Shown: one piece after another, positions 5,217-32,457 of the stretch
Layout: each line of letters starts with the position of its first letter
Numbering within the stretch: position 1 is the first letter of the stretch
Assembly: GCA_016207275.1 (NCBI GenBank)
Contig: JACQPY010000019.1
Location: 1 to 32,457 of the forward strand
DNA: 32,457 bases
From: Candidatus Kerfeldbacteria bacterium
GTDB lineage: Bacteria > Patescibacteriota > Patescibacteriia > SBBC01
Direction of reading: 5' to 3'
Notes under the pieces: generated by a model
Database searches by the model: none
What the model was told of the DNA's origin: nothing
What the model saw: only the letters and a program-made list of their open reading frames with translations
Translations under genes and position numbers: made by a program

Positions 5217-7259
5217 ATGCCTGCCTTCAAACTCCACTCCCCCTTCAATCCAACCGGCGACCAGCCGCAAGCGATTGCCAGGCTGATTGAAGGACTGAAG
5301 CGCGGCAACACCGCTCAGACATTGCTCGGCGTCACCGGTTCAGGCAAAACGTTCACCATGGCGAACGTGGTGGCGGCGGTCAATCGACCGACCCTGGTCA
5401 TCAGCCACAACAAAACCCTGGCCGCTCAGCTGGCCAGTGAGTTCAAAGAGTTTTTTCCAGAAAACGCCGTTCACTACTTTGTCTCCTACTACGACTACTA
5501 CCAACCCGAAGCCTACATCCCCCGGACCGACACCTACATCGAGAAGGAAACCAACATCAACGAGGAGATTGACCGATTGCGTAACGCCGCCACCCGCGAC
5601 CTGCTGACGCGGCCGGACGTGCTAATCGTCGCCTCGGTGTCCTGCATTTACGGCTTAGGTAATCCAACGGAGTACCAGAAGACCGCGCTGACTCTGACGG
5701 TTGGTCAACGCACCAAACGGCAATCGATCCTGATCAAGCTTAACCGCTTACTCTACCTCCGTAACGACGTTGACTTTCACCGCAGCACCTACCGCGTCCG
5801 CGGCGATACCCTCGACATCTACCCGGCCTATGAAGAACGCGGCGTACGAATTTCCTTCTTCGGCGACAACATCGAGGGTATCACTATCTTTGATCCAATC
5901 ACCGGCCAAGAACTGGAAACGCTCAAGTCAATCGAGATTTTCCCGGGCCGGCACTTCGTCACCCCAACCGAACGCCTACCGCATATCGCGGCCGCCATCC
6001 GGGCCGAGCTCGCCGAACAGTTGGCTGAACTCAAACACCACGGTAAACTTCTCGAGGGGCAACGCCTCGAGCAGCGCACCAACTTCGATTTAGAAATGAT
6101 CGAGACGGTCGGCTACTGCAACGGTATTGAAAACTACTCGCGCTTCTTTGACGGCCGCCAGCCTGGTCAGCCGCCGTCCACGCTGCTCGACTATTTCCCC
6201 AAAAACTTCTTGCTCTTCATCGACGAATCACACATGAGCTTGCCGCAGATCCGCGGCATGTACGAGGGTGACCGCTCGCGCAAGCAAGTCTTGGTGGGGT
6301 ACGGCTTCCGTTTACCATCGGCCCTGGACAACCGGCCGCTACGGTTCGATGAATTCAAGCAGCGGATTGGACAGCGGATCTACGTCTCGGCCACGCCTGA
6401 GGAAGCCGAGATTCGCGAGTCGACACCGGTGGTCGAGCAGTTTGTTCGTCCAACCGGTCTGCTCGATCCGACGATCGAGGTGTTACCCACCAAAGGACAA
6501 GTTGATCACCTCCTCGAGGCGATTAAGCAACGCGTTAAGCAAAAGCAGCGTGTACTCATTACGACGTTGACCAAGCGCATGGCCGAAGAGTTGACCGACT
6601 ACCTCAAAGAGCTGGGTATTAAAGTCCAGTACCTCCACGCCGACGTCGAAACGTTCGCTCGCCTAGAAATTCTCCGCGATTTGCGTCTCGGCGTCTACGA
6701 TGTGGTGGTCGGCATCAACCTGTTGCGCGAGGGGCTCGACCTGCCCGAAGTCTCGCTGGTGGCGATTCTCGACGCAGACAAAGAAGGGTATCTTCGTTCC
6801 AAAACTGCCCTCCTCCAAACCATGGGTCGAGCCGCTCGCCACGTTGATGGTCACGTAATCATGTACGCTGATACCATCACCGGCTCAATGAAAAATGCCA
6901 TCGCTGAGGTTGAACGTCGGCGCAAAATTCAACAAGTTTACAATCAGCAGCATCACGTTACGCCAACGAGCATTGCCAAGGCCGTCCGCCAAGACCGCTT
7001 AGCCGGTTTGAAGTTGGTTGAAGAACAAACACCGAAGCTGTTGATTGATGAAATCCCGGCCATGGAAATCAATCATGTCATCGCCGATCTCACCAATCAA
7101 ATGAAACTGGCCAGTCAAAACCTTGAATTTGAAAAAGCCGCCATTCTCCGCGATCAGATCGCGGCGCTCAAGCAGCGTCAATCAATCAAGCCGGCCGGCC
7201 GGAAACGATCGACCCGGCGCCCCTTGCCGCGACCGTTCGGCAAACGTAAGAGAGCCTAG
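5217..7259 (+). CDS. uvrB: Excinuclease ABC subunit B
   Basis: [26 protein letters not shown], helicase motifs, C-terminal UVR motif; ATG at 5217 preferred over TTG at 5190. Confidence 0.97.
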
Positions 7260-8675: not shown

Positions 8676-8726
8676 TGCTAACGTTTCCTAACTCCTAATT
8701 CCCTAATACCTAACACCTAGTTCCCA

Positions 8727-8990
8727 ATGCCCATCAAACACGCCGCCGCCAAGGCCTTACGACAGAACAAGAAACACCGCGTCCGTAATCTCGCGCTGAT
8801 TGCTGGCCTGAGGAAAGCCGTTAAGGCGGTTCGTCGTGCCGCCACCGCCAGGGAAAAAGCTAAGGCTGGCGAATTCTTACAAAAGGCCATACCGATCATT
8901 GACCGCGCCCGGCAGAAGGGCACCATCAAAGCCAATACGGCCGCTCGGCTTAAATCGCGGCTTCACCGCGCCGTTCGCCGCCTAACCTAA
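8727..8990 (+). CDS. rpsT: 30S ribosomal protein S20
   Basis: MPIKHAAAKALRQNKKHRVRNLALIAGLRKAVK. Confidence 0.93.
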   Translation: MPIKHAAAKALRQNKKHRVRNLALIAGLRKAVKAVRRAATAREKAKAGEFLQKAIPIIDRARQKGTIKANTAARLKSRLHRAVRRLT

Positions 8991-9075: not shown

Positions 9076-10065
9076 TTACAAAACTCGACTCGGCGTAGCG
9101 CAGACCGAAAGCACAAACAGTTCGAGCAGCGCCCGGGGATTGGCCTGGGTGTTTTTGAGCTTAAAGTCGATTTCGACCAACTGGTCGTGGGCCGCAATCA
9201 GTTCGCGCTGCGAGAACGTCCGCACCTGCTGCAACGCTTTCTTTACGACAAACGGATGGAGCTTCAACCGACTAGCGATCGTCGCCGGGTTTGGTTCGTG
9301 CTGGACGATGTCGCCGACACTCAGCAAAATCCGCACTTGTCGCGCCAGCATCGTCAGCAAGTAGAGCTCGTTGGCGCCGCTGCGGAGCTGCTGCTCGAGC
9401 AAGGCGCTCGCCCGCTGGGTATCCTTGCGGCTGAGCGCGTCAGTGAAGGCAAAGATGTCGGCTTCCAGCGGCTCGCCGACGCTGGCCGCCACGTCAGCGG
9501 CGGTGATAGTCCGGCCATGGGCCAAGTACCGCAGCTTCTCCAGCTCGTTGGCCGCGGACCAAAGATTGCTTCCGACCGTGCCGGCCAACCGTTCAGCGGC
9601 CGCTCGCTCGATGCTCGAACCCAGCGCTTTGGCTCGCCGAATAATCCAACGCTCAACCTCGACCGGTTCGAGTGGGTCAAAAACCTCGTGGTTCTTGACG
9701 CCGCGAAGGACGGCGGCTAACGCGCTCGGCTCAGCGTCCTTGCGTTTCCGGGTCGGCGCTTCTTGATCCGTCCAAAAAACAACAATCGTCTCCTCGGGGA
9801 TCTGCTTCTCTCGAACGTACTGCGCCACGGCCTCCTGTGTTTTTTTGTCGGCGTCGTACGGCCGATCAACTACCACGAACCGCCGTGAGCTCAGAAAACC
9901 TTGGCTGGCGACTGCCGCTTGGAAGGTCTCAAGCTTCAAGCCATCGCCCTCCAGGTGCACAACGTTGATGCCCGACGGGTCGTACTTTTTAATAAAAGCT
10001 TGGCGAAGCGTTTTGAGGCGCTCGCGCGACCGGAATGTATCTTCACCGGAAAGGTAAATAATCAT
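9076..10065 (-). CDS. holA: DNA polymerase III delta subunit
   Basis: MIIYLSGEDTFRSRERLKTL...FVVVDRPYDADKK; HolA-like length and architecture. Confidence 0.85.
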   Translation of the reverse strand: MIIYLSGEDTFRSRERLKTLRQAFIKKYDPSGINVVHLEGDGLKLETFQAAVASQGFLSSRRFVVVDRPYDADKKTQEAVAQYVREKQIPEETIVVFWTDQEAPTRKRKDAEPSALAAVLRGVKNHEVFDPLEPVEVERWIIRRAKALGSSIERAAAERLAGTVGSNLWSAANELEKLRYLAHGRTITAADVAASVGEPLEADIFAFTDALSRKDTQRASALLEQQLRSGANELYLLTMLARQVRILLSVGDIVQHEPNPATIASRLKLHPFVVKKALQQVRTFSQRELIAAHDQLVEIDFKLKNTQANPRALLELFVLSVCATPSRVL

Positions 10066-10070
10066 GGGAT

Positions 10071-10155
10071 TGATCCCGTTAGAAAGTCCGCCTTAAAAAG
10101 CTAATACGCGGTGTCAATCTCGTTCCTGTTAAAGCAAACTTTCTAACGGGATTGA
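10071..10155. repeat. TIR element copy B (85 bp)
   Basis: TGATCCCGTTAGAAAGT...ACTTTCTAACGGGATTGA. Confidence 0.8.
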
Positions 10156-10243
10156 CAGCTTGGCTCGACAGTGCTAGGGTCCAACGTTATCGTACCAATA
10201 CTGCAAACGAAATACAAACACCAACCAACGGAGGGTTCTTCCT

Positions 10244-10477
10244 ATGTCCTTTCCCATCTGCGGCATCTGCGGCGTGGAACTCGGGCCAGATGTCTCGTGC
10301 CCGCACGTCGAAGCTTTCTTCGGACCCCGTCCGAAACTTACCCGGCGCGAACAGCTCGGGGCTTCGCGCATGACCGGCGCCGACTGGGCGCGGATGTTCC
10401 CGGCGGGAGTCGCGCTCCACTGGAAGCGCACGACCACGGGAATGACTTGTGTCGACCTTGATTCGGTCCTCCCCTAA
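10244..10477 (+). CDS. Small zinc-ribbon-like protein (CGICG...C..H)
   Basis: 77-aa ORF with GGAGG upstream; ICGICGVELGPDVSCPH. Confidence 0.6.
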   Translation: MSFPICGICGVELGPDVSCPHVEAFFGPRPKLTRREQLGASRMTGADWARMFPAGVALHWKRTTTGMTCVDLDSVLP

Positions 10478-10508
10478 GTCACGAACTTACCCCCACGAGG
10501 AGGTACCA

Positions 10509-10793
10509 ATGGATTTCTGTCCCCGCTGCCGGGCGGATCAACCGCTGTTCGGTATCGGCTGGTGCCTGGAGTGCGGCTTGACCCTCATCCCGGTCTGGGG
10601 CGGGTTTAACCCCATCAGCCCCTTCGCCGGTATCACCGTCCAGGCCCCCAAGCTCTTCGACCTTCCGGATGGATTCTACAATGAAGACTTCCCCGACTAC
10701 TGGCCGGAAGACGGAAATCCTTCGCCGGGGCTGACGGTCACTGCCGAGGAGATCGACACGCTCATTCGCGAATCGCTCTCTCCACGGCACTGA
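10509..10793 (+). CDS. Small zinc-ribbon protein (CPRC...CLEC)
   Basis: AGGAGG SD 5 nt upstream of ATG; MDFCPRCRADQPLFGIGWCLECG. Confidence 0.65.
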   Translation: MDFCPRCRADQPLFGIGWCLECGLTLIPVWGGFNPISPFAGITVQAPKLFDLPDGFYNEDFPDYWPEDGNPSPGLTVTAEEIDTLIRESLSPRH

Positions 10794-10817
10794 GCAAAAC
10801 TGCTCGTCCACCTCTAC

Positions 10818-10855
10818 CGCCGACCGGCATTCTCACGAGTGTCGGTCGGTTTCTA
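10818..10855 (+). terminator. Intrinsic terminator-like hairpin after zinc-ribbon genes
   Basis: CCGACCG...CGGTCGG followed by TTTCT. Confidence 0.65.
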
Positions 10856-11025
10856 ATGCGTACGTTTCCGAATCATCTGTCGGCCGAGCAAAGCGAGGCC
10901 GATTGTAAACAATCTGTCGTCTCCGAAGTGGCGAGGATCAGGGTGTCCGCAGGACGGGACCCTAGCCGAGCCACAAGGGACGACACCTCGCAAGGGAAAG
11001 GGAGGGTGTCGGAAGGGAAAACCGT

Positions 11026-13776
11026 TCAGGTTTTCCCTCCGAGAGGCTTTGTCTCCCCCCAACTCCGACCCGCCTCAACGTTCACCTCAAACGGCACCTT
11101 CAGCTTGTAGACGCCCTCCATCGCCTCCTGCACGGCCCGCGCCACTTTGGGCACATCCTTATCCGGCACTTCAAACACCAGCTCGTCGTGTACTTGGAGG
11201 ACCATCTTTGATTCCGGCGACAGCTTCGGCAGCAGCTGATCAAGCTTAATCATCGCCATTTTCATGAAGTCAGCTTGCGTCCCCTGGATCGGCATGTTAA
11301 TCGCCATCCGTTCGGCGGCCGCACGGATCATCGGGTTCGACGACTGCAGCTCAGGCAGGTAGCGCCGACGGCCGAACAGCGTCTCGGCGTACCCCCGCGA
11401 TCGCGCCAGTTCAATCGCCTCTTCGAGCCAGTCGTGCAGCTCGTGGTAGACGCTGAAGTACTGCTCAATGAAAGCCTGCGCTTTCTCCCGCGGAATCCCC
11501 TGCCGCTGCGCCAATCCAGACGGCCCCATGCCGTAGAGAACGCCGAAGTTCACTTCCTTTGCCGTGCTGCGAATTTCTTTAGTCACCTGATTCAGGGGAA
11601 TGCCGTGAATCTCGGCGGCGGTCCGGGCGTGAATGTCCTCTTTTTTTCGAAACGACTCGATCATCTTCTTGACCTCGGCGATCGAAGCGGCAATCCGCAG
11701 CTCGAACTGTGAGTAGTCGGCGGCCATGATTCGAAAACCGCGCTCGGCAATGAAGGCCTTGCGAATCTCCGCGCCGAGCTCGGTCCGAATCGGAATGTTC
11801 TGCAGGTTCGGATCAGATGATGACAGTCGACCAGTGGCCGCCACTGTTTGGTTAAAGGTGGTGTGCACCCGACCATCTACCGTGCTGACCAGTTCTGGTA
11901 AAGCGTCAAGGTAGGTTGACTTGAGCTTTGCGAGCTCGCGATACTCCATGATTTTCGGAATAATCGGATGCGCGCCCTGGAGCTTTTCCAACTGGTCGGC
12001 CGCCGTGGAAACGCCGGTCTTGGTCTTACCCAATCCCTTGGCCGACAACTTTAGCTTGTCGAACAGGATTTCTTTCAGTTGCTGCGGCGAGCCAACGTTG
12101 AACTCGATTCCGGCCATTGTATAGATGGCTTTTTCAATTGTTTCCAGCTTTCGCCCTAAGCGGCGACTCATCTCCTTTAGGAACGCCACGTCAACTTTTA
12201 CGCCGGCTTGCTCCATCCGGCCGAGCACCGGCACCAGCGGCATTTCAATAGTGCGGAACAGGTCGTCCAGCTGCTGCTCCTTCAACCGCTTCGACAGCTT
12301 GACGTACAGACGTTCGGTGTAGTCGGCGTCCTCGGCGGAGTACCACGACAGCTTCGGCACGGGCACGCTCTCCATCGGCAGTTGGTGCTTGCTGCGCGGG
12401 CCGATCAGCGCCTCGATCGGCATCATTTCGTAGCCGAACTCCTCGAACGCCAGCTGCTTGAGCCCGTGCGCTCGACTGCCGGGGTTCAGCAGGTACGAGG
12501 CGACCATCGAGTCAAAGGCGATCCCGCCGAGCTCGATGCCGGCGGTCTGCAACACGCGGTAGTCGAATTTAAGATTGTGGCCGTGCTTCTTGACCGAAGT
12601 TCGTTCGAGGATCGGCCGCAGCTGCTCGAGCCAGTCACCCTGCAACGAAACGAAGTAGGCCCGGCCGGCTTGCCAAGAGAAGCTGATGCCGAGCAGTTTG
12701 GCCAGCAATGGATCGAGGCTGGTCGTTTCAGTATCGAGCGTCAACGACTCCTGCGCCTTCAACGCTTTCAAAAACCGAGCCAGGGCGGTTTGGTCAGCGA
12801 TCAGCTCGTAGTCATGGCCGGGTTTTTTTGGCGGTGGCGCTGGCGCGGTCAGGTCGAGCTGCTGCACCACCGGCCGCGGACTGCCATCCTCGTTCTCCGG
12901 TAGCTTCGACAGCAGCGACGTGAACTCTAAATCCTGAAAGAGCTTAGCCACCTGTTGCCGATCGTAGCGTTGGCGCCCGGCCTGACTGAGGGTGAACTTG
13001 ATCGGCACCGCTCGAACAATGGTGGCCAACCGCTTCGACAAGAAGGCATTCTGCTTGTCAGCCAGCAGCCGCTGACGCAAACCGGGTTTCAGTTTTTTGG
13101 CTTTGGGTGTTTCTTTCGCCAAAGCTTCGTAGAGTTTTTCGACCGTCCCGAATTCCTGCAGCAGCTCAGCCGCGGTTTTTTCGCCGACGCCTTTGACGCC
13201 GGGAATGTTGTCAGACGGGTCGCCCCGCAAGGCCTTAAAGTCAACCAGCTGCTCCGGTGTAATTCCGAATCGTTCTTTGACCGCGGCCGGATTGAGGGTG
13301 ACTGTCTCTCCCAAGCCTTTCCTCAAGGTGTAGACGCTGGTTTCGTCATCAACCAGCTGCAGCGTGTCCATGTCGCCGGTGACGATGACCTTCTCCACTC
13401 CCGTAGCCTGTTTGGTGATCGTGCCGATCAGGTCATCGGCTTCGTAGCCGGCCTTTTCCAGCGCCGGAATGTTGAAGCTGTCGACCAGCTGCTTGACCAC
13501 GGGGATTTGGTCGTACAATTCTTGCGGCGCCTTGACCCTCGTGGCTTTGTATTCGGCATACTCTTTTTCCCGAAAGGTCTTTTCCCGACGGTCAAAACAG
13601 ACGACCACGTGCGTCGGCTTGAGCTCGCGGAACATCTTCAAGAGCACGGTCGTAAAGCCGTAGACGGCGTTGACTAGCTGGCCCTTCTTGGTCGTCAACG
13701 GCGGCAGCGCGTGAAAGGACCGGTGGATCAGAGCATTGCCATCGACAATGACGAGACGTTGTTTTGCACGAGGCAT
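11026..13776 (-). CDS. polA: DNA polymerase I (5'-3' exo, 3'-5' exo, polymerase)
   Basis: LDTETTSLDPL exo motif; KEVNFGVLYGMGPSGLA; VLQVHDELVFE. Confidence 0.96.
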   Translation of the reverse strand: MPRAKQRLVIVDGNALIHRSFHALPPLTTKKGQLVNAVYGFTTVLLKMFRELKPTHVVVCFDRREKTFREKEYAEYKATRVKAPQELYDQIPVVKQLVDSFNIPALEKAGYEADDLIGTITKQATGVEKVIVTGDMDTLQLVDDETSVYTLRKGLGETVTLNPAAVKERFGITPEQLVDFKALRGDPSDNIPGVKGVGEKTAAELLQEFGTVEKLYEALAKETPKAKKLKPGLRQRLLADKQNAFLSKRLATIVRAVPIKFTLSQAGRQRYDRQQVAKLFQDLEFTSLLSKLPENEDGSPRPVVQQLDLTAPAPPPKKPGHDYELIADQTALARFLKALKAQESLTLDTETTSLDPLLAKLLGISFSWQAGRAYFVSLQGDWLEQLRPILERTSVKKHGHNLKFDYRVLQTAGIELGGIAFDSMVASYLLNPGSRAHGLKQLAFEEFGYEMMPIEALIGPRSKHQLPMESVPVPKLSWYSAEDADYTERLYVKLSKRLKEQQLDDLFRTIEMPLVPVLGRMEQAGVKVDVAFLKEMSRRLGRKLETIEKAIYTMAGIEFNVGSPQQLKEILFDKLKLSAKGLGKTKTGVSTAADQLEKLQGAHPIIPKIMEYRELAKLKSTYLDALPELVSTVDGRVHTTFNQTVAATGRLSSSDPNLQNIPIRTELGAEIRKAFIAERGFRIMAADYSQFELRIAASIAEVKKMIESFRKKEDIHARTAAEIHGIPLNQVTKEIRSTAKEVNFGVLYGMGPSGLAQRQGIPREKAQAFIEQYFSVYHELHDWLEEAIELARSRGYAETLFGRRRYLPELQSSNPMIRAAAERMAINMPIQGTQADFMKMAMIKLDQLLPKLSPESKMVLQVHDELVFEVPDKDVPKVARAVQEAMEGVYKLKVPFEVNVEAGRSWGETKPLGGKT

Positions 13777-13800
13777 GCGTGCATTGTAGCACGCAGGTTA

Positions 13801-14242
13801 GTAGTTGAAAGTTGAAGGTTACCAGTAGCTGTCAACGGCGCTTGGTGCGCAACAGTGAGGCCTCAAGCCGGTAAAGCATTTTTGAACACTCTTCGTACTC
13901 TTGAGTAAGCGACGTACATGTTGAGAGTTCGAGGTAACCCTTCTTTAACGCAACGTGTAGGTGATGTCTCGTTTCTCTTATTTCCCCCTGGGCGCGACTT
14001 ATTCCTTCGGCGTAAATGTTAGTGTGCTTGTTTGCGAAACATTCGGCCAAATTGGCAGCGGCAGAATTTGACGAACGGCGCAATTGCGATCCGAGCTCAT
14101 AAAGTTCAAACTTAGGGAACAGCATTGTTAACTTGTGAACATCAAGGACAAGGTTAAAAAGCTTTTGATACACTTTCAGGTCTTCCAACCTCATAACTTT
14201 CAACTGGTAACTGATAATTGGTAACTGTCAACTCACAACTAC
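13801..14242. mobile_element. Free-standing 23S-IVS-like cassette with 24-bp imperfect terminal inverted repeats
   Basis: GTAGTTGAAAGTTGAAGGTTACCA vs RC of right end GTAGTTGTGAGTTGACAGTTACCA (20/24); contains only the four-helix-bundle ORF. Confidence 0.65.
13832..14203 (-). CDS. Four-helix bundle protein (23S rRNA intervening-sequence protein family)
   Basis: LEDLKVYQKLFNLVLDVHKLT..FPKFELYELGSQLRRSSNSAAANLAECFANK signature. Confidence 0.9.
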   Translation of the reverse strand: MKVMRLEDLKVYQKLFNLVLDVHKLTMLFPKFELYELGSQLRRSSNSAAANLAECFANKHTNIYAEGISRAQGEIRETRHHLHVALKKGYLELSTCTSLTQEYEECSKMLYRLEASLLRTKRR

Positions 14243-14244
14243 CT

Positions 14245-16680
14245 CTACTTCACGCCTCTCTTCCACCACCCCACGCCGGCGCCCCCGACGACCGCCGCCG
14301 CTACCAACAGGTACATCCACCACGTTGGGCTGGCCTTTTTAGCAACGTTCACCGGCGAAGCCGAGGTGGTGTGGAGAATTGGTTCAACCACCCGAATATC
14401 ATCTTTCATGCGCGGCAGTAAACGCAGACCGCTCGAGGTCCGACTCAGAATTCCAGAAACTCCCACTCGGTCGCCAGAACGCATCGCCGGGCGCTTGAAC
14501 CCGGTTGACGCTCGCACGTAGACGGCCAGTTCGCCGCTGCCGTCATCAACGGTAAATCGGCTGCCGGACAGCGTCGTGACCTCGCCGGTTACCCGAACCA
14601 GCGAACCGACCCGCTCGTCAAGATCAGCCGCCTGGACATCGACGATCGCTGGCTCCTGTCGTTCGCCGCGGAGCACGACATCAACCGCACGTTCCACCAG
14701 TACGTACGGCTCGCTGTACTTCGTTCGACGTTTGCCAGTGATCTTGACCACATCGCCAATGGAGAGCTTCGGCAGCGGTTCATTCGAACGGATGGCAATG
14801 CCGCCGCGGCCGTCGCTGACGTAGAAAACCCCGTCCCCGAGCATACTCGGCGGAACCGTCACCCAGCCCTCGACCGTCGCCACGGTCGAAGAATCTGCAG
14901 TCTGTGCCTCAGCAATCGTCCGCACGGTCGCCGCTCCCTTGACCGTTCCCTTCTTGGTCGCGCTTTTCTTCGATCGGGAAGGGTTTTTGAGCGGCGGACG
15001 AACGGTGAATTCACGGGTGGCGCTGTCTTCCAAGCCGGTCGCATCACGAACGGTAAGCTGGACGACAACCGGTCCTTCCTCGCTGAACCGATGCTTGGCC
15101 GTTCGTCCGGTTCCGTGTTCGCCGTCGCCGAAGTCCCAAGCGAATGACCGAACGTCGCCGTCGACGTCAGTGCTATCCGAGGCGTCGAAGGTTACCGGCT
15201 CGCCAACGCGGCGAATCTTGCTAACGCTGAACTTCGCTTCCGGCGGGTGGTTTGGCTTGACGATTTCATTCGCGCTGCCGGGCGTCGGTTTCGTCGTCCA
15301 TTGCCAGGTACTTCCATCCCAGGCGTACGTCGAGTTTTCTTCAACGTCGCTGTAGTGCACCTCATGAACGACCGTACCAGCGGCGTTCTTCAATCGCACC
15401 GTATCACCATCGTTGTTGAGGGCGATCTTGCTCTGCTCCCTTTTCAGCACCACAAACGATCCGTTCGTGATCTTCGTTCCGCCCGGAAACTTGTACGTCG
15501 TTCCGCTTTCATCACTAACGCTCCAACCGCTAAGATCAACATCGCCGCCGCTGGCGACGAATTCAATAAACTCACCGTCATCCGCGCCATCCGGATTCGG
15601 GAACAATTCATTGATGGTTAACGAACTGGTGCTCGGCGTCGGGTTGTTCAAGGGCGGAGGTGAATCGGGTACCGGCGGCGGCGAAACGGTGACGGTGAAA
15701 TTCACGCTGGTACTCCCCGTTCCGTCGTCAACGGCTAACGTCCCCACGTACGAGCCCGCCGAGAGGTACACGTGCGTCGGCGCCACCGCCTGGCTGGTCG
15801 CGCCATCGCCAAAAGCCCACCAAAACTGAAGGGTATCGCCATCGGGATCGTGCGCATCCGAACCGTCGAAAGTCACGGTCACACCAACCGCCGCCTGCTG
15901 ATCGCTGACAATCGGTACAACCGGCGGCACGTTGTCGTTCTGGCTGCGCGGCGTTCCCAGCACGATTGAACCGCTCTTCAAATTAACGGCTATAGTGGAA
16001 GTGTGCCACGATTCTTTTTTCGTACCGTCTCCCGGAAGGCCGTTCCGCGCCATTGAGCCGTATGTTTCGCCGCTGACGTATTTCCCGGCCAGCGGCGTTC
16101 CACTTCCATCGTCAGCAATATCTACCAACACACCACTCGCATCATATAGTTTCACTTCCAAACCTGAGTTCAACAACGACACGGCGGTATCAACGACGTC
16201 GGGTTCCACTGCTAGATGCGTGCTCGTCGAACTGGCGGCGAAATTCGAAATCAAGAAAAAACCGCGCGGCTCGATTGACCTGCCGCTGGGAATCGTCAGT
16301 ATTGCCACTTCTTGACCGGACGACTTCCGGGTCAATTTCCATCCGCTCAAATCAACGGTGGTTTCACTCAGATTTCTAAACTCAATCCACTCATCGGCTG
16401 CCGAGGCTGGCGAGCCCATCCACAAGAGCTCGTTGATGACGACGCTCGGTATTTGACCGTCAACCCGCACGCCAAGACCGACCGGGAGTACCAGCGCCAC
16501 TACCGTTACCAGCAGCACTCCCCTCCTTCCAAAGTTCTTCAGAAGAGGAAATAAGGAGGGGTGCCGCGAAGCGCGAAGCGGCTTACGTGGGGTGAATCCC
16601 CTCCTTTCAGGCGAAACAAACAAGGAGGGGTGCCCGGAGGGTGGGGTGGTAACAAACATAACCGGTGGCCTTTCTGCCAC
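14245..16680 (-). CDS. Surface protein: lamin-tail domains, PKD domains, OB-fold-like regions, C-terminal TM; start may be GTG at 16518
   Basis: VVINELLWMGSPASAADEWIEFRN, WAFGDGATSQAVAPTHVY, LTINELFPNPDGADDGEFIEF, WWMYLLVAAAVVGGAGVGWW. Confidence 0.85.
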   Translation of the reverse strand: MAERPPVMFVTTPPSGHPSLFVSPERRGFTPRKPLRASRHPSLFPLLKNFGRRGVLLVTVVALVLPVGLGVRVDGQIPSVVINELLWMGSPASAADEWIEFRNLSETTVDLSGWKLTRKSSGQEVAILTIPSGRSIEPRGFFLISNFAASSTSTHLAVEPDVVDTAVSLLNSGLEVKLYDASGVLVDIADDGSGTPLAGKYVSGETYGSMARNGLPGDGTKKESWHTSTIAVNLKSGSIVLGTPRSQNDNVPPVVPIVSDQQAAVGVTVTFDGSDAHDPDGDTLQFWWAFGDGATSQAVAPTHVYLSAGSYVGTLAVDDGTGSTSVNFTVTVSPPPVPDSPPPLNNPTPSTSSLTINELFPNPDGADDGEFIEFVASGGDVDLSGWSVSDESGTTYKFPGGTKITNGSFVVLKREQSKIALNNDGDTVRLKNAAGTVVHEVHYSDVEENSTYAWDGSTWQWTTKPTPGSANEIVKPNHPPEAKFSVSKIRRVGEPVTFDASDSTDVDGDVRSFAWDFGDGEHGTGRTAKHRFSEEGPVVVQLTVRDATGLEDSATREFTVRPPLKNPSRSKKSATKKGTVKGAATVRTIAEAQTADSSTVATVEGWVTVPPSMLGDGVFYVSDGRGGIAIRSNEPLPKLSIGDVVKITGKRRTKYSEPYVLVERAVDVVLRGERQEPAIVDVQAADLDERVGSLVRVTGEVTTLSGSRFTVDDGSGELAVYVRASTGFKRPAMRSGDRVGVSGILSRTSSGLRLLPRMKDDIRVVEPILHTTSASPVNVAKKASPTWWMYLLVAAAVVGGAGVGWWKRGVK
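16520..16650. repeat. Two tandem copies of the CCCCTCCT..AGGAGGGG palindromic element
   Basis: CCCCTCCTT (16520) / AAGGAGGGG (16553); CCCCTCCTT (16598) / AAGGAGGGG (16622) then TGCCCGgagGGTGGGGTGGT. Confidence 0.75.
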
Positions 16681-20507: not shown

Positions 20508-20606
20508 GGTCTTCCCCAGCAGTCAAATGTCAAAAGTCAATTGTCAAATGTTCACTCATACCTCAACGCTCCCGTCGTTTCCTGCGGTCCAGTACACGGC
20601 CAGCTA

Positions 20607-29673: not shown

Positions 29674-30229
29674 CTGCTCTTTTCTCTCAACACCACTGAA
29701 TGGCGCATGACCGAGAATTCATGCTTCTACCAGTGTTGTTGATCCCGAACGTTGACAACTGAATAGCATAGGTTGAGCATCAAACTAGTGTACCGAAGCT
29801 TCATGCGTCGGTACACAATCGTCCATTCCGTAATCGTGTCCCGATTCCTCATCCGTCGCCGAGGAGGCTGAGCGTCGAACTTGCTTCGCGCTAGGCCGAC
29901 GACAGCGACACCATGAAGGGAAAGGGGGAGCTGGGAAGGCCCCGCACCGAGCGCTTCGCTCTGGTGCGCGGGCACCCGAACTCCATCTTCGCGATTACGG
30001 TTGAACAACATAAGGGCGTACGGTGGATGCCTCGACATCGCGCGGCGATGAAGGACGTAGGAGCCTGCGATAAGCCTCGGGGAGGTGGCAACCGACCTGT
30101 GATCCGGGGATGTCCGAATGGGGAAACCTTCTGCCCGGAAGGGGCAGAGCCGGCGGCTGAACACATAGGCCGTCTGGAGCGCACCTGGCGAATTGAAACA
30201 TCTTAGTAGCCAGAGGAAAAGAAAATAAC

Positions 30230-30305
30230 GCCTCCGCTATAGCTACGGCGTACCAGCGTTCTTGCAATAATGCAGGAACTCGTGTGCCGGAGCTTTAGCG
30301 GAGGC
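30230..30305 (+). other. 23S insertion 1: 76-nt long hairpin
   Basis: GCCTCCGCTA...TAGCGGAGGC 10-bp stem between GAGGAAAAGAAA and ATTCCCGTAGTAGTGGCGAGCGA. Confidence 0.75.
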
Positions 30306-30426
30306 ACATTCCCGTAGTAGTGGCGAGCGAACCGGGAAGAGCCAAAACCTCTAGAGCTTTCTCCTGCAAAGGGGAATAGGGTCCAAGCCCATATGCTGTA
30401 GGGGCGTTGCGAGAAGTAACGTCTAA

Positions 30427-30625
30427 AGCTTGTCCCCGTGCAAACGGGGACCCAGCAGGTCTGTCATCCTGAAACTGTTTCAGGATCTGACAGGACCCCG
30501 CATCAAGTGCGGGGTCACCCTGCGGGTGACTTTAGGAGTAGAGCGCATGTTCGACCGCTCCCCCTGCCTCCCCCTCTCCTTACATAAGGAGAGGGGGACG
30601 GGGGGTGAGGTCAGACCAGCTCGTA
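30427..30625 (+). other. 23S insertion 2: ~200-nt arm made of serial palindromic modules
   Basis: GTCCCCG/CGGGGAC; CTGTCATCCTGAAAC/GTTTCAGGATCTGACAG; GACCCCGCA/TGCGGGGTC; TCACCC/GGGTGA; CCCCCTCTCCTT/AAGGAGAGGGGG. Confidence 0.75.
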
Positions 30626-30884: not shown

Positions 30885-30986
30885 CTGTGCTTCGCACAGT
30901 AGTTATCAGTTGTAAATTGTAAGATTGAAACAACTCATCTCTTACAACTTTAATCTTTAATCTGACAACTACCGCGCGGAGCGCGG
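30885..30986 (+). other. 23S insertion 3: IVS-like insert in the helix 25 region
   Basis: Lies between CAAGCAGTGGGAGC and GTGACCGCGTGCC; CTGTGcttcgCACAG, TAGTTATCAG...CTGACAACTA, CCGCGCggaGCGCGG. Confidence 0.8.
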
Positions 30987-31096
30987 GTGACCGCGTGCCT
31001 ATTGAAGAATGAACCAACGACTTCGATCCGTGTCGTTCGGCTAATCCCGCGAGGGAGGAGCCAAAGTGAAAGCGAGCCCGAATAGGGCGACCGCCC

Positions 31097-31138
31097 AGCA
31101 CCATTTGAATCCTTCTGGATTCAAATGGTGCTGGGCAG
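31097..31138 (+). other. 23S insertion 4: perfect 19-bp hairpin
   Basis: CCCAGCACCATTTGAATCC-TTCT-GGATTCAAATGGTGCTGGG. Confidence 0.8.
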
Positions 31139-31532
31139 ATGGCACGGACGAGACCCGAAGCCGGGTGAGCTACCCATGGCCAGGATGAAGCGCAGGTAAC
31201 ACTGCGTGGAGGTCCGAACCCATACGTCGTGCAACGCGTTGGGATGAGCTGTGGGTAGGGGAGAAATTCCAATCGAACTCGGCGATAGCTGGTTCTCCTC
31301 GAAATAGCTGTTGGGCTAGCCTCGTAAACCTTGTGACCGGAGGTAGAGCACTGAATGGGACTGGATGGCGCGAGCCTACCTGTTCCAACCAAACTCCGAA
31401 TGCCGGTCCTCGAATTACGGGAGTCAGACTGTGAGGTCTAAGCTTCACCAGTCAAAAGGGAAAGAGCCCTGATCCTCAGCTAAGGCCCCTAAATTACCGC
31501 TCAGTGTAAAGGAAGTGGAGTGACTCAAACAA

Positions 31533-31645: not shown

Positions 31646-31745
31646 GCTGCGCGTTGCGCAGCAGTTGTCAGTTACAGGTTAACAGTTGTCAGCACACACT
31701 GATAACTAACAACGTACAACTGGTAACTACTGCGCAGCGCGCGGC
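31646..31745 (+). other. 23S insertion 5: IVS-like insert in the helix 45 region
   Basis: Between GTGCCGAAGCTAGGA and GGTAGAGGAGCGTTC; GCTGCGCgttGCGCAGC + CAGTTGTCAGTTACAGG...CAACTGGTAACTACT + TGCGCAGCGCGC. Confidence 0.8.
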
Positions 31746-32025
31746 GGTAGAGGAGCGTTCGGTATGCGCCGAAGTCCCGCCGGAAGGCGGGGTGGAGCGT
31801 ACCGAAGTGCGAATGTTGGTATAAGTAGCAAAAATCCCGATGAAAACTCGGGACACCGAAAACCCAAGGTTTCCTGGGCAACGCAAATCGTCCCAGGGTG
31901 AGTCGGTCCTAAGGCGAGGCTGAAAAGCGTAGCTAATGGACAGCTGGTTAACATTCCAGCACTACCGTGTGGTTATCGGTCTGGTGCGCATTGTTTCGGA
32001 TCGAGCGCGTTTTGGTTATACGCGT

Positions 32026-32135
32026 CCCTGTACCACTCACTTCGCTTCGCTGCGTTCGGGTACAGGGCAAGGGATTTTAGTAAAGAACCCTTGCCCCATA
32101 CACGAGCGGAGTGGAACGGAGCGAGTGGTATGGGG
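32026..32135 (+). other. 23S insertion 6: three consecutive hairpins
   Basis: CCCTGTACC/GGGTACAGGG, GCAAGGG/CCCTTGC, CCCCATAC/GTATGGGG. Confidence 0.65.
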
Positions 32136-32457
32136 GCCGGCAAAGCCGCAAGGCCGCGCCAATTCGATCTCCCGCAGTGCCGAGAAAAGCCAGACTGTTA
32201 CGTCGCGCGGTAACCGTACCGGAAACCGACACAGGTGGGTAGGCAGGTAATCTGCCAAGGTGGACGAGAGAACCATCGCTAAGGAACTCGGCAAAACAGT
32301 AGCCGTACCCTCGGTATATGGCTTACCCTCGCGCAAGCGAGGGTCGAAGTTAATGACGTCAAGCGACTGTTTACCAAAAACTTAGGTCCCTGCGAAACCG
32401 TAAGGTGATGTATAGGGGCTGATGCCTGGCCAGTGTCAGAACGTTAAGGGGAGAGGT

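Follow-up and report, generated by a model that had tools for sequence, protein, structure and literature searches.

Between an LTD/PKD gene and polA, the stretch of DNA analysed here (32,457 nucleotides; hereafter, the window) carries a small four-helix-bundle gene bounded by inverted repeats, and the 23S rRNA gene of the same window contains gene-less inserts that share words with those repeats. A sequence-only reading of the window had proposed that the gene with its flanks (the cassette) and the rRNA inserts belong to one element family, with the cassette as the autonomous or helper copy. The locus therefore raises the question of what the cassette is, and how it relates to the inserts.

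The cassette occupies positions 13801-14242. Its arms were located as claimed at 13801-13824 (plus strand) and 14219-14242 (minus strand), with 20 of 24 positions identical, and a search of the genome for the 24-bp arm pair found this pattern at the window locus only. What had been missed is that the arms are arrays of tandem heptamers, YAGTTRN, in register and both directed inward, and that the rRNA inserts have the same architecture. The parts of the cassette are as follows.

13832..14194, minus strand: IVP/S23p four-helix-bundle ORF (PF05635), with its ATG at 14194-14192.
14193..14241, minus strand: 5' arm, read on the coding strand as the seven heptamers TAGTTGT, GAGTTGA, CAGTTAC, CAATTAT, CAGTTAC, CAGTTGA, AAGTTAT.
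13802..13829, plus strand: 3' arm (inverted), TAGTTGA, AAGTTGA, AGGTTAC, CAGTAGC.

The ATG at 14194 is a likelier start than the listed TTG at 14203, which falls within the arm. The 5' arm follows the LTD/PKD stop codon immediately and runs into the IVP ATG, and the 3' arm stops just short of the promoter-like tgctacaatg of polA. The cassette thus sits between two protein genes and not inside the 23S gene, which sets it apart from 23S intervening sequences (IVSs) proper. RNA folding of the whole cassette gave a z-score of -0.08, no better than shuffles; in contrast to the rRNA inserts, the full-length hairpin thus has no exceptional stability as RNA.

The cassette ORF matches PF05635 with an E-value of 1.6e-26 (93 bits against a curated cut-off of 33.8) and TIGR02436 with 87.6 bits (curated cut-off 24). 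Its AlphaFold model is a four-helix bundle (pLDDT 93) whose best PDB match is 2gsc, XCC0516 of Xanthomonas (TM 0.83), with 2rld also near; the Avd protein of DGRs (8ub7, 4dwl) is a more remote fold match, with a TM of about 0.77-0.80. We know of no catalytic site in IVP, nor of any description of it as a transposase.

The two inserts of the 23S gene lie in helices 25 and 45, as named after the flanking E. coli sequence.

30897..30973, plus strand: ORF-less heptamer hairpin in helix 25, RNA fold z -7.1; left CAG, TAGTTAT, CAGTTGT, AAATTGT, AAGATTG; right (reverse complement) TAGTTGT, CAGATTA, AAGATTA, AAGTTGT, AAGAGAT, GAGTTG.
31659..31733, plus strand: ORF-less heptamer hairpin in helix 45, RNA fold z -8.8; left CAG, CAGTTGT, CAGTTAC, AGGTTAA, CAGTTGT, CAG; right (reverse complement) CAG, TAGTTAC, CAGTTGT, ACGTTGT, TAGTTAT, CAG.

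Each is an extra long-stem hairpin in an rRNA loop, as expected of a 23S IVS, and each is built of the YAGTTRN heptamer of the cassette arms in identical polarity. The word CAACTGGTAACT from the cassette flank does recur in the helix 45 insert, ACTGATAACTA is common to both inserts, and the arm word GTTACCAGTT (at most one mismatch) has 8 matches in the window against 1.1 expected. The proposal of one element family stands in that cassette and inserts share one architecture of inward YAGTTRN arrays, and ORF-less relatives of IVP cassettes were found both in this genome and at the same Nostoc plasmid site as an IVP copy. It does not extend to this cassette as the parent of the two inserts, since the YAGTTRN class recurs in other phyla (for example at L197), and a helper role of the IVP protein in moving them is putative. 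Among relatives, about six genomes with IVP have heptamer arrays inside their 23S genes; seven genomes without IVP have none there, and some of these seven contain other 23S insertions. With p at 0.17, this link to IVP is only suggestive. The window 23S gene seemingly contains further, non-heptamer hairpin inserts at 30200-30320, 30430-30620, 31090-31140 and 32000-32150.

Arms of this kind are a property of the IVP gene family. Inverted arms that match each other lie no more than about 80 bases from the ORF in all five PF05635 genes of this genome (G000), with flank inverted-repeat scores of 15.5-21 (16 for the cassette ORF), against a maximum of 13 among 248 ordinary genes of the same genome, none of which has such arms. 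Each copy has its own unit: TAGGGGTT, GGGTAAG, TAGCTTR, TTTGACA and YAGTTRN. Of 74 IVP loci of this class of bacteria, 63 had their own flank pair within the top 5% of mismatched pairs; the best period was 7, followed by 8 and 9, and both arms had the same period in 40 of 41 cases. A wider set of 80 loci, taken from a named genome collection, spans many phyla (other CPR lineages, Bacteroidota, Nostoc, Proteobacteria, Treponema, Clostridia, Chloroflexi, Verrucomicrobia and ANME-1 archaea); here 57 exceeded the 95% level and arm periods were equal in 41 of 44. The units also have a polarity, with YAG three times at spacing 7 in 59 of 154 upstream arms (4 in the reversed control) and the complement, CTR three times, in 50 downstream arms (controls 4-8). 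The common anatomy is thus one IVP/S23p gene between two inverted, inward arrays of a 7- to 9-base unit, often of consensus YAGNNNN, which is matched inside a copy and different between copies.

Arms that are alike within one element are unlike between elements whose proteins are 55-70% identical; arm sequence turns over fast, while both arms of one copy remain matched. A strict code linking protein to arm was rejected: arm likeness is gone at 55-70% protein identity, and below 70% the unit period tracks the protein clade only weakly. Related IVP cassettes with period-8 arms lie right before rnc (RNase III) at L003 and L024 (in G000 and the sister genome G001), with a similar one at L047 (in the sister genome G004), so that this cassette is long-resident, unlike the one at polA. 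IVP cassettes of different clades lie just past the end of a comM-like gene in two distant genomes (L004, L019), and at L058 a cassette separates a ruvC-like from a ruvA-like gene; insertion may favour gene ends.

Heptamer arrays also occur without an IVP gene. About one third of this genome was surveyed, as stretches, and the dominant short period there is 7. Compared with the arms of the genome's own IVP copies, the ORF-less arrays had a mean score of 12.9, whereas 60 random sets of five foreign IVPs gave a mean of 10.0 and a maximum of 12.3. Two such arrays lie in the window.

20522..20551, plus strand: solo array of TTTGACA type, upstream of a NUDIX-like gene, matching the arms of IVP copy L006 (G000:C16).
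8686..8733, plus strand: solo heptamer array of CCTAATT type, without a cognate IVP found in this genome.

The score of the former against the L006 arms was 20.5, equalled by none of 200 random sets of five. Arrays of TTTGACA type were seen at five or more positions and those of TAGCTTR type at no fewer than four, and several array types in the genome are without a cognate IVP. Complete inverted pairs of about 80-115 bases with no gene between them were found at L088:11782-11870, L091:11775-11852, L090 about 5245-5359 and L014:2763-2843, and a YAGTTRY hairpin lies in frame within an IleRS gene (L085, G000:C16:17041-37040, at 9128-12691, minus strand). Arm-like sequence at many unrelated positions had been named as grounds for doubting a common family. 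Heptamer arrays are indeed scattered over many positions, yet between genomes their occurrence follows that of IVP, and within this genome their type follows that of the IVP arms.

Several of these sites have further peculiarities. The IleRS gene of L085 also contains a whole histidine-phosphatase domain (PF00300), matched at residues 515-678 of the synthetase. At L091 (G000:C6:62139-82138, 11743-11900), an ORF-less TAGCTTR hairpin is flanked on both sides by the first ten codons of ychF (MSLHIGIVGL and MSLQIGIVGLPNV), which looks as though the target gene had gained a fresh 5' end with the insertion. Just upstream of polA at L168 (G001:C17), a similar pattern is seen, with the polA 5' end doubled (MVAKKDKLVIVD, then MVKQRQRLVIVDGN) around a GC-rich hairpin.

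The link between arrays and IVP presence was followed across genomes. Arrays of period 7-9 were counted in sampled stretches that lie almost wholly off IVP genes, although some such genes fall within the G000 sample and one G024 stretch: the density per 100 kb was 8.5-23 across eight genomes with IVP and 0-4.3 across eight without. Genome-wide within this class of bacteria, TAGG three times at spacing 7 occurs in 21 of 44 genomes with IVP and in 0 of 13 without; when the reversed motif, itself a heptamer repeat, is added, the counts become 34 of 44 and 1 of 13 (p 9e-6). In one Bacteroidota order, sampled with 50 genomes, a run of five in-register YAG units is present in 21 of the 23 that have IVP and in 2 of the 27 that lack it (p 8e-10); limiting the set to genomes of 1.5-3.2 Mb gives 9 of 11 and 2 of 20 (p 1e-4). 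The exceptions in this order are two IVP genomes without arrays and two IVP-less genomes with them. Control genomes, E. coli included, had no IVP (0 of 14). Heptamers are reported to characterise Xanthomonas, not other gamma-proteobacteria, and Nostoc (PMC4692102), and in keeping with this distribution IVPs exist in Xanthomonas (XCC0516) and Nostoc. This genome-level link is a correlation in which kinship is only partly controlled.

Direct comparison of filled and empty sites was possible in cyanobacterial plasmids. On Nostoc conjugation-type plasmids, a TraM-domain gene and its successor form a shared pair whose flanks reach 94.5% identity. The gap between the two genes is 52 bases, and empty, in p057_K and p057_A of C057, and is filled by an IVP gene with AGGGAAC arms in C052 and CCNP1411, whose right arms are one unit apart. 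ATCC 53789 has a near-identical left junction followed by an ORF-less unit with AGGGAAC arms, and retains the native right flank; in p057_H the site holds another ORF-less unit, with AATTCAA arms. Between cmr2 and cmr3, where pAQ6 of Picosynechococcus PCC 7002 has 12 bases, Picosynechococcus PCC 7003 carries an IVP cassette, one arm of which provides the cmr2 stop codon. Filled and empty alleles in close relatives, the mark of a mobile element, are thus on hand for members of the class in Nostoc and Picosynechococcus plasmids. No target-site duplication was seen at IVP insertions, and 27-40 bp of target were replaced at the Nostoc site; the joining chemistry is therefore unlike that of the usual transposases. 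A candidate duplication of 3 bp, TCA, accompanies the ORF-less insertion in p057_H as compared with UHCC 0926. An IVP cassette also lies between cas6 and cas4 in Anabaena sp. 90, so that in cyanobacterial plasmids (L302, L303) IVP genes are seen inside CRISPR operons of type III-B (cmr2/cmr3) and type I-D (cas6/cas4).

For the window copy itself, the evidence at polA is presence and clade difference within its family. The corresponding position in sister genomes G001 and G004 is also occupied by an IVP cassette, with other arms and a protein of another clade, and G002 has no IVP cassette adjoining polA. The window IVP is 69% identical to a copy in G007, of another family, and only remotely like those of G001 and G004, while polA is 85 and 76% identical to theirs, respectively. 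Because IVP clade and arms differ while polA is alike, a separate acquisition or exchange is the likeliest origin of the window copy. Two other lines were dropped: the twin copies of Calothrix NIES-22 lie within a larger duplicated segment and are not a case of cassette transposition, and phages as main carrier were set aside after the L016 query found no match in 50,697 phage records. In IMG/VR, 18 contigs carry IVP, many of them with arms.

On this evidence, the cassette probably represents a class of small, widely distributed mobile elements, of which this genome's 23S IVSs, its ORF-less hairpins and, probably, many of its solo arrays would be gene-less derivatives. Behind this reading stand direct observations: the anatomy, its near-universality for IVP genes, the filled, empty and ORF-less plasmid alleles, and the genome-wide link of IVP with arrays. 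The arms would be the ends of the element and the putative binding site of IVP. As DNA or RNA they would fold back, with an Avd-like IVP pentamer holding the stem and promoting pasting at gene ends and in hairpin loops; host enzymes would do the joining, with no regular target duplication, and unit number would afterwards drift via slippage (compare C052 with CCNP1411, and Coxiella strains). In 23S, the stem would be cut out by a putative RNase III activity, and a copy could survive in rRNA because RNase III can excise it. A broader proposal, which we put forward tentatively, is that IVP with heptamer arms constitutes a mobile-element class without a known recombinase, present in many phyla and in ANME archaea, that it is the source of tandem heptamers and 23S IVSs, and that its two arms change together by an undescribed form of copying.

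The same arrays might instead be sites of IVP acting as an RNA- or DNA-binding regulator, a pentamer on tandem 7-mers that controls itself and a regulon or mRNA ends; nothing would then be mobile, and loss of the protein would be followed by loss of the sites. This would account for the link with IVP presence across genomes and for arrays that adjoin stop and start codons. It would agree with MacGregor's suggestion of translational regulation for TAACTGA repeats (PMC4679880) and with the related Avd pentamer being part of an RNP (8ub7). It is hard to square, however, with a private unit sequence for every IVP copy, even inside one genome, with empty inverted pairs in 23S loops and IleRS coding sequence, or with whole units present or absent at orthologous plasmid sites, and we regard it as rather unlikely. 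We give a little less credence to an unrelated enzyme in trans (a RAYT/Y1 transposase, a reverse transcriptase or the replication fork) that moves cassettes and arrays with IVP as cargo or accessory. In its favour, no catalytic residues are known in IVP, whose fold resembles that of Avd, the partner of the reverse transcriptase in DGRs, and this genome has two Y1_Tnp genes; yet neither Y1_Tnp match has adjoining heptamer arms, and reverse transcriptase genes, present in 24 of 57 genomes, are absent from many IVP-rich ones (G020, G021, G024, G034, G038). Reverse transcriptase as a necessary helper was rejected, as 33 of the 57 genomes have none.

It is very improbable that the arms are ordinary slippage repeats at hairpins, associated with IVP by coincidence or through tolerated flanks. 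Heptamers are over-represented in many bacteria and slippage has been proposed for them (PMC4692102), and the one-unit difference between C052 and CCNP1411 is of the expected kind. Slippage alone, however, does not account for one gene family being flanked, in phyla far apart, by inverted arrays that match, leaves unexplained why IVP-less genomes are without arrays, and runs against the finding of inverted heptamer flanks around 0 of 248 ordinary genes here.

With the cassette read as a mobile-element copy, three old puzzles are joined: the nature and origin of 23S IVSs, the role of the S23p/four-helix-bundle protein, and the seven-base repeats in intergenic DNA of cyanobacteria, xanthomonads, Bacteroidota and CPR bacteria, many of which, where unexplained, may have originated as gene-less arrays of IVP elements. 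Given the common anatomy and the presence/absence link, all three become testable with one protein and one DNA substrate.

Among known systems, DGRs resemble the cassette in the four-helix fold of Avd; they differ in that the cassette locus has no DGR parts and the sole reverse transcriptase of its genome is on another contig (G000:C6), and by genome distribution IVP elements need no reverse transcriptase. MITEs and REP/REPIN, which are moved by transposases in trans, likewise comprise short gene-less inverted units beside a gene-bearing form in one genome. The ORF-less arrays share arms with IVP copies as MITEs share ends with an autonomous transposase element, but IVP is no known transposase, and IVP elements lack a terminal sequence common to all copies, a transposase and a consistent target duplication. 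Nor do repeats flank a Y1_Tnp gene as in REP/RAYT, the two Y1_Tnp matches being without arms.

Taken singly, IVSs, the IVP family and heptamer repeats have all been described before. In the searchable literature, which leaves out most subscription papers and all preprints, no paper was found that ties IVP genes to the known heptamer repeats; because of that coverage, priority for the link is uncertain. The nearest system is the helix 45 IVS of Coxiella burnetii, 428-444 nt with an S23p/IVP ORF and terminal inverted repeats, in which tandem heptamers (GACAGAT repeats) of strain-variable number precede the ORF and whose stem is cut by RNase III in vitro (PMC4990558). An earlier proposal of a transposon-like IVS origin is cited in PMC4990558. 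The Coxiella IVS and the cassette are alike in protein family, size, terminal inverted repeats and heptamers ahead of the ORF, and the ORF-less inserts of the window are at the classical IVS sites, helices 25 and 45. In contrast to Coxiella, where the heptamers were handled as a local detail (PMC4990558), the gene copy of the window is free-standing between protein genes and its rRNA copies have no ORF. The STRR, TAACTGA and GGGNATC heptamers of cyanobacteria, Xanthomonas and Beggiatoaceae have been described without a link to IVP or IVSs, mostly as direct repeats, regulators or G-quadruplexes; they too form intergenic arrays with the unit length of the cassette arms, and TAACTGA is the complement of the YAGTTRN unit of the cassette.
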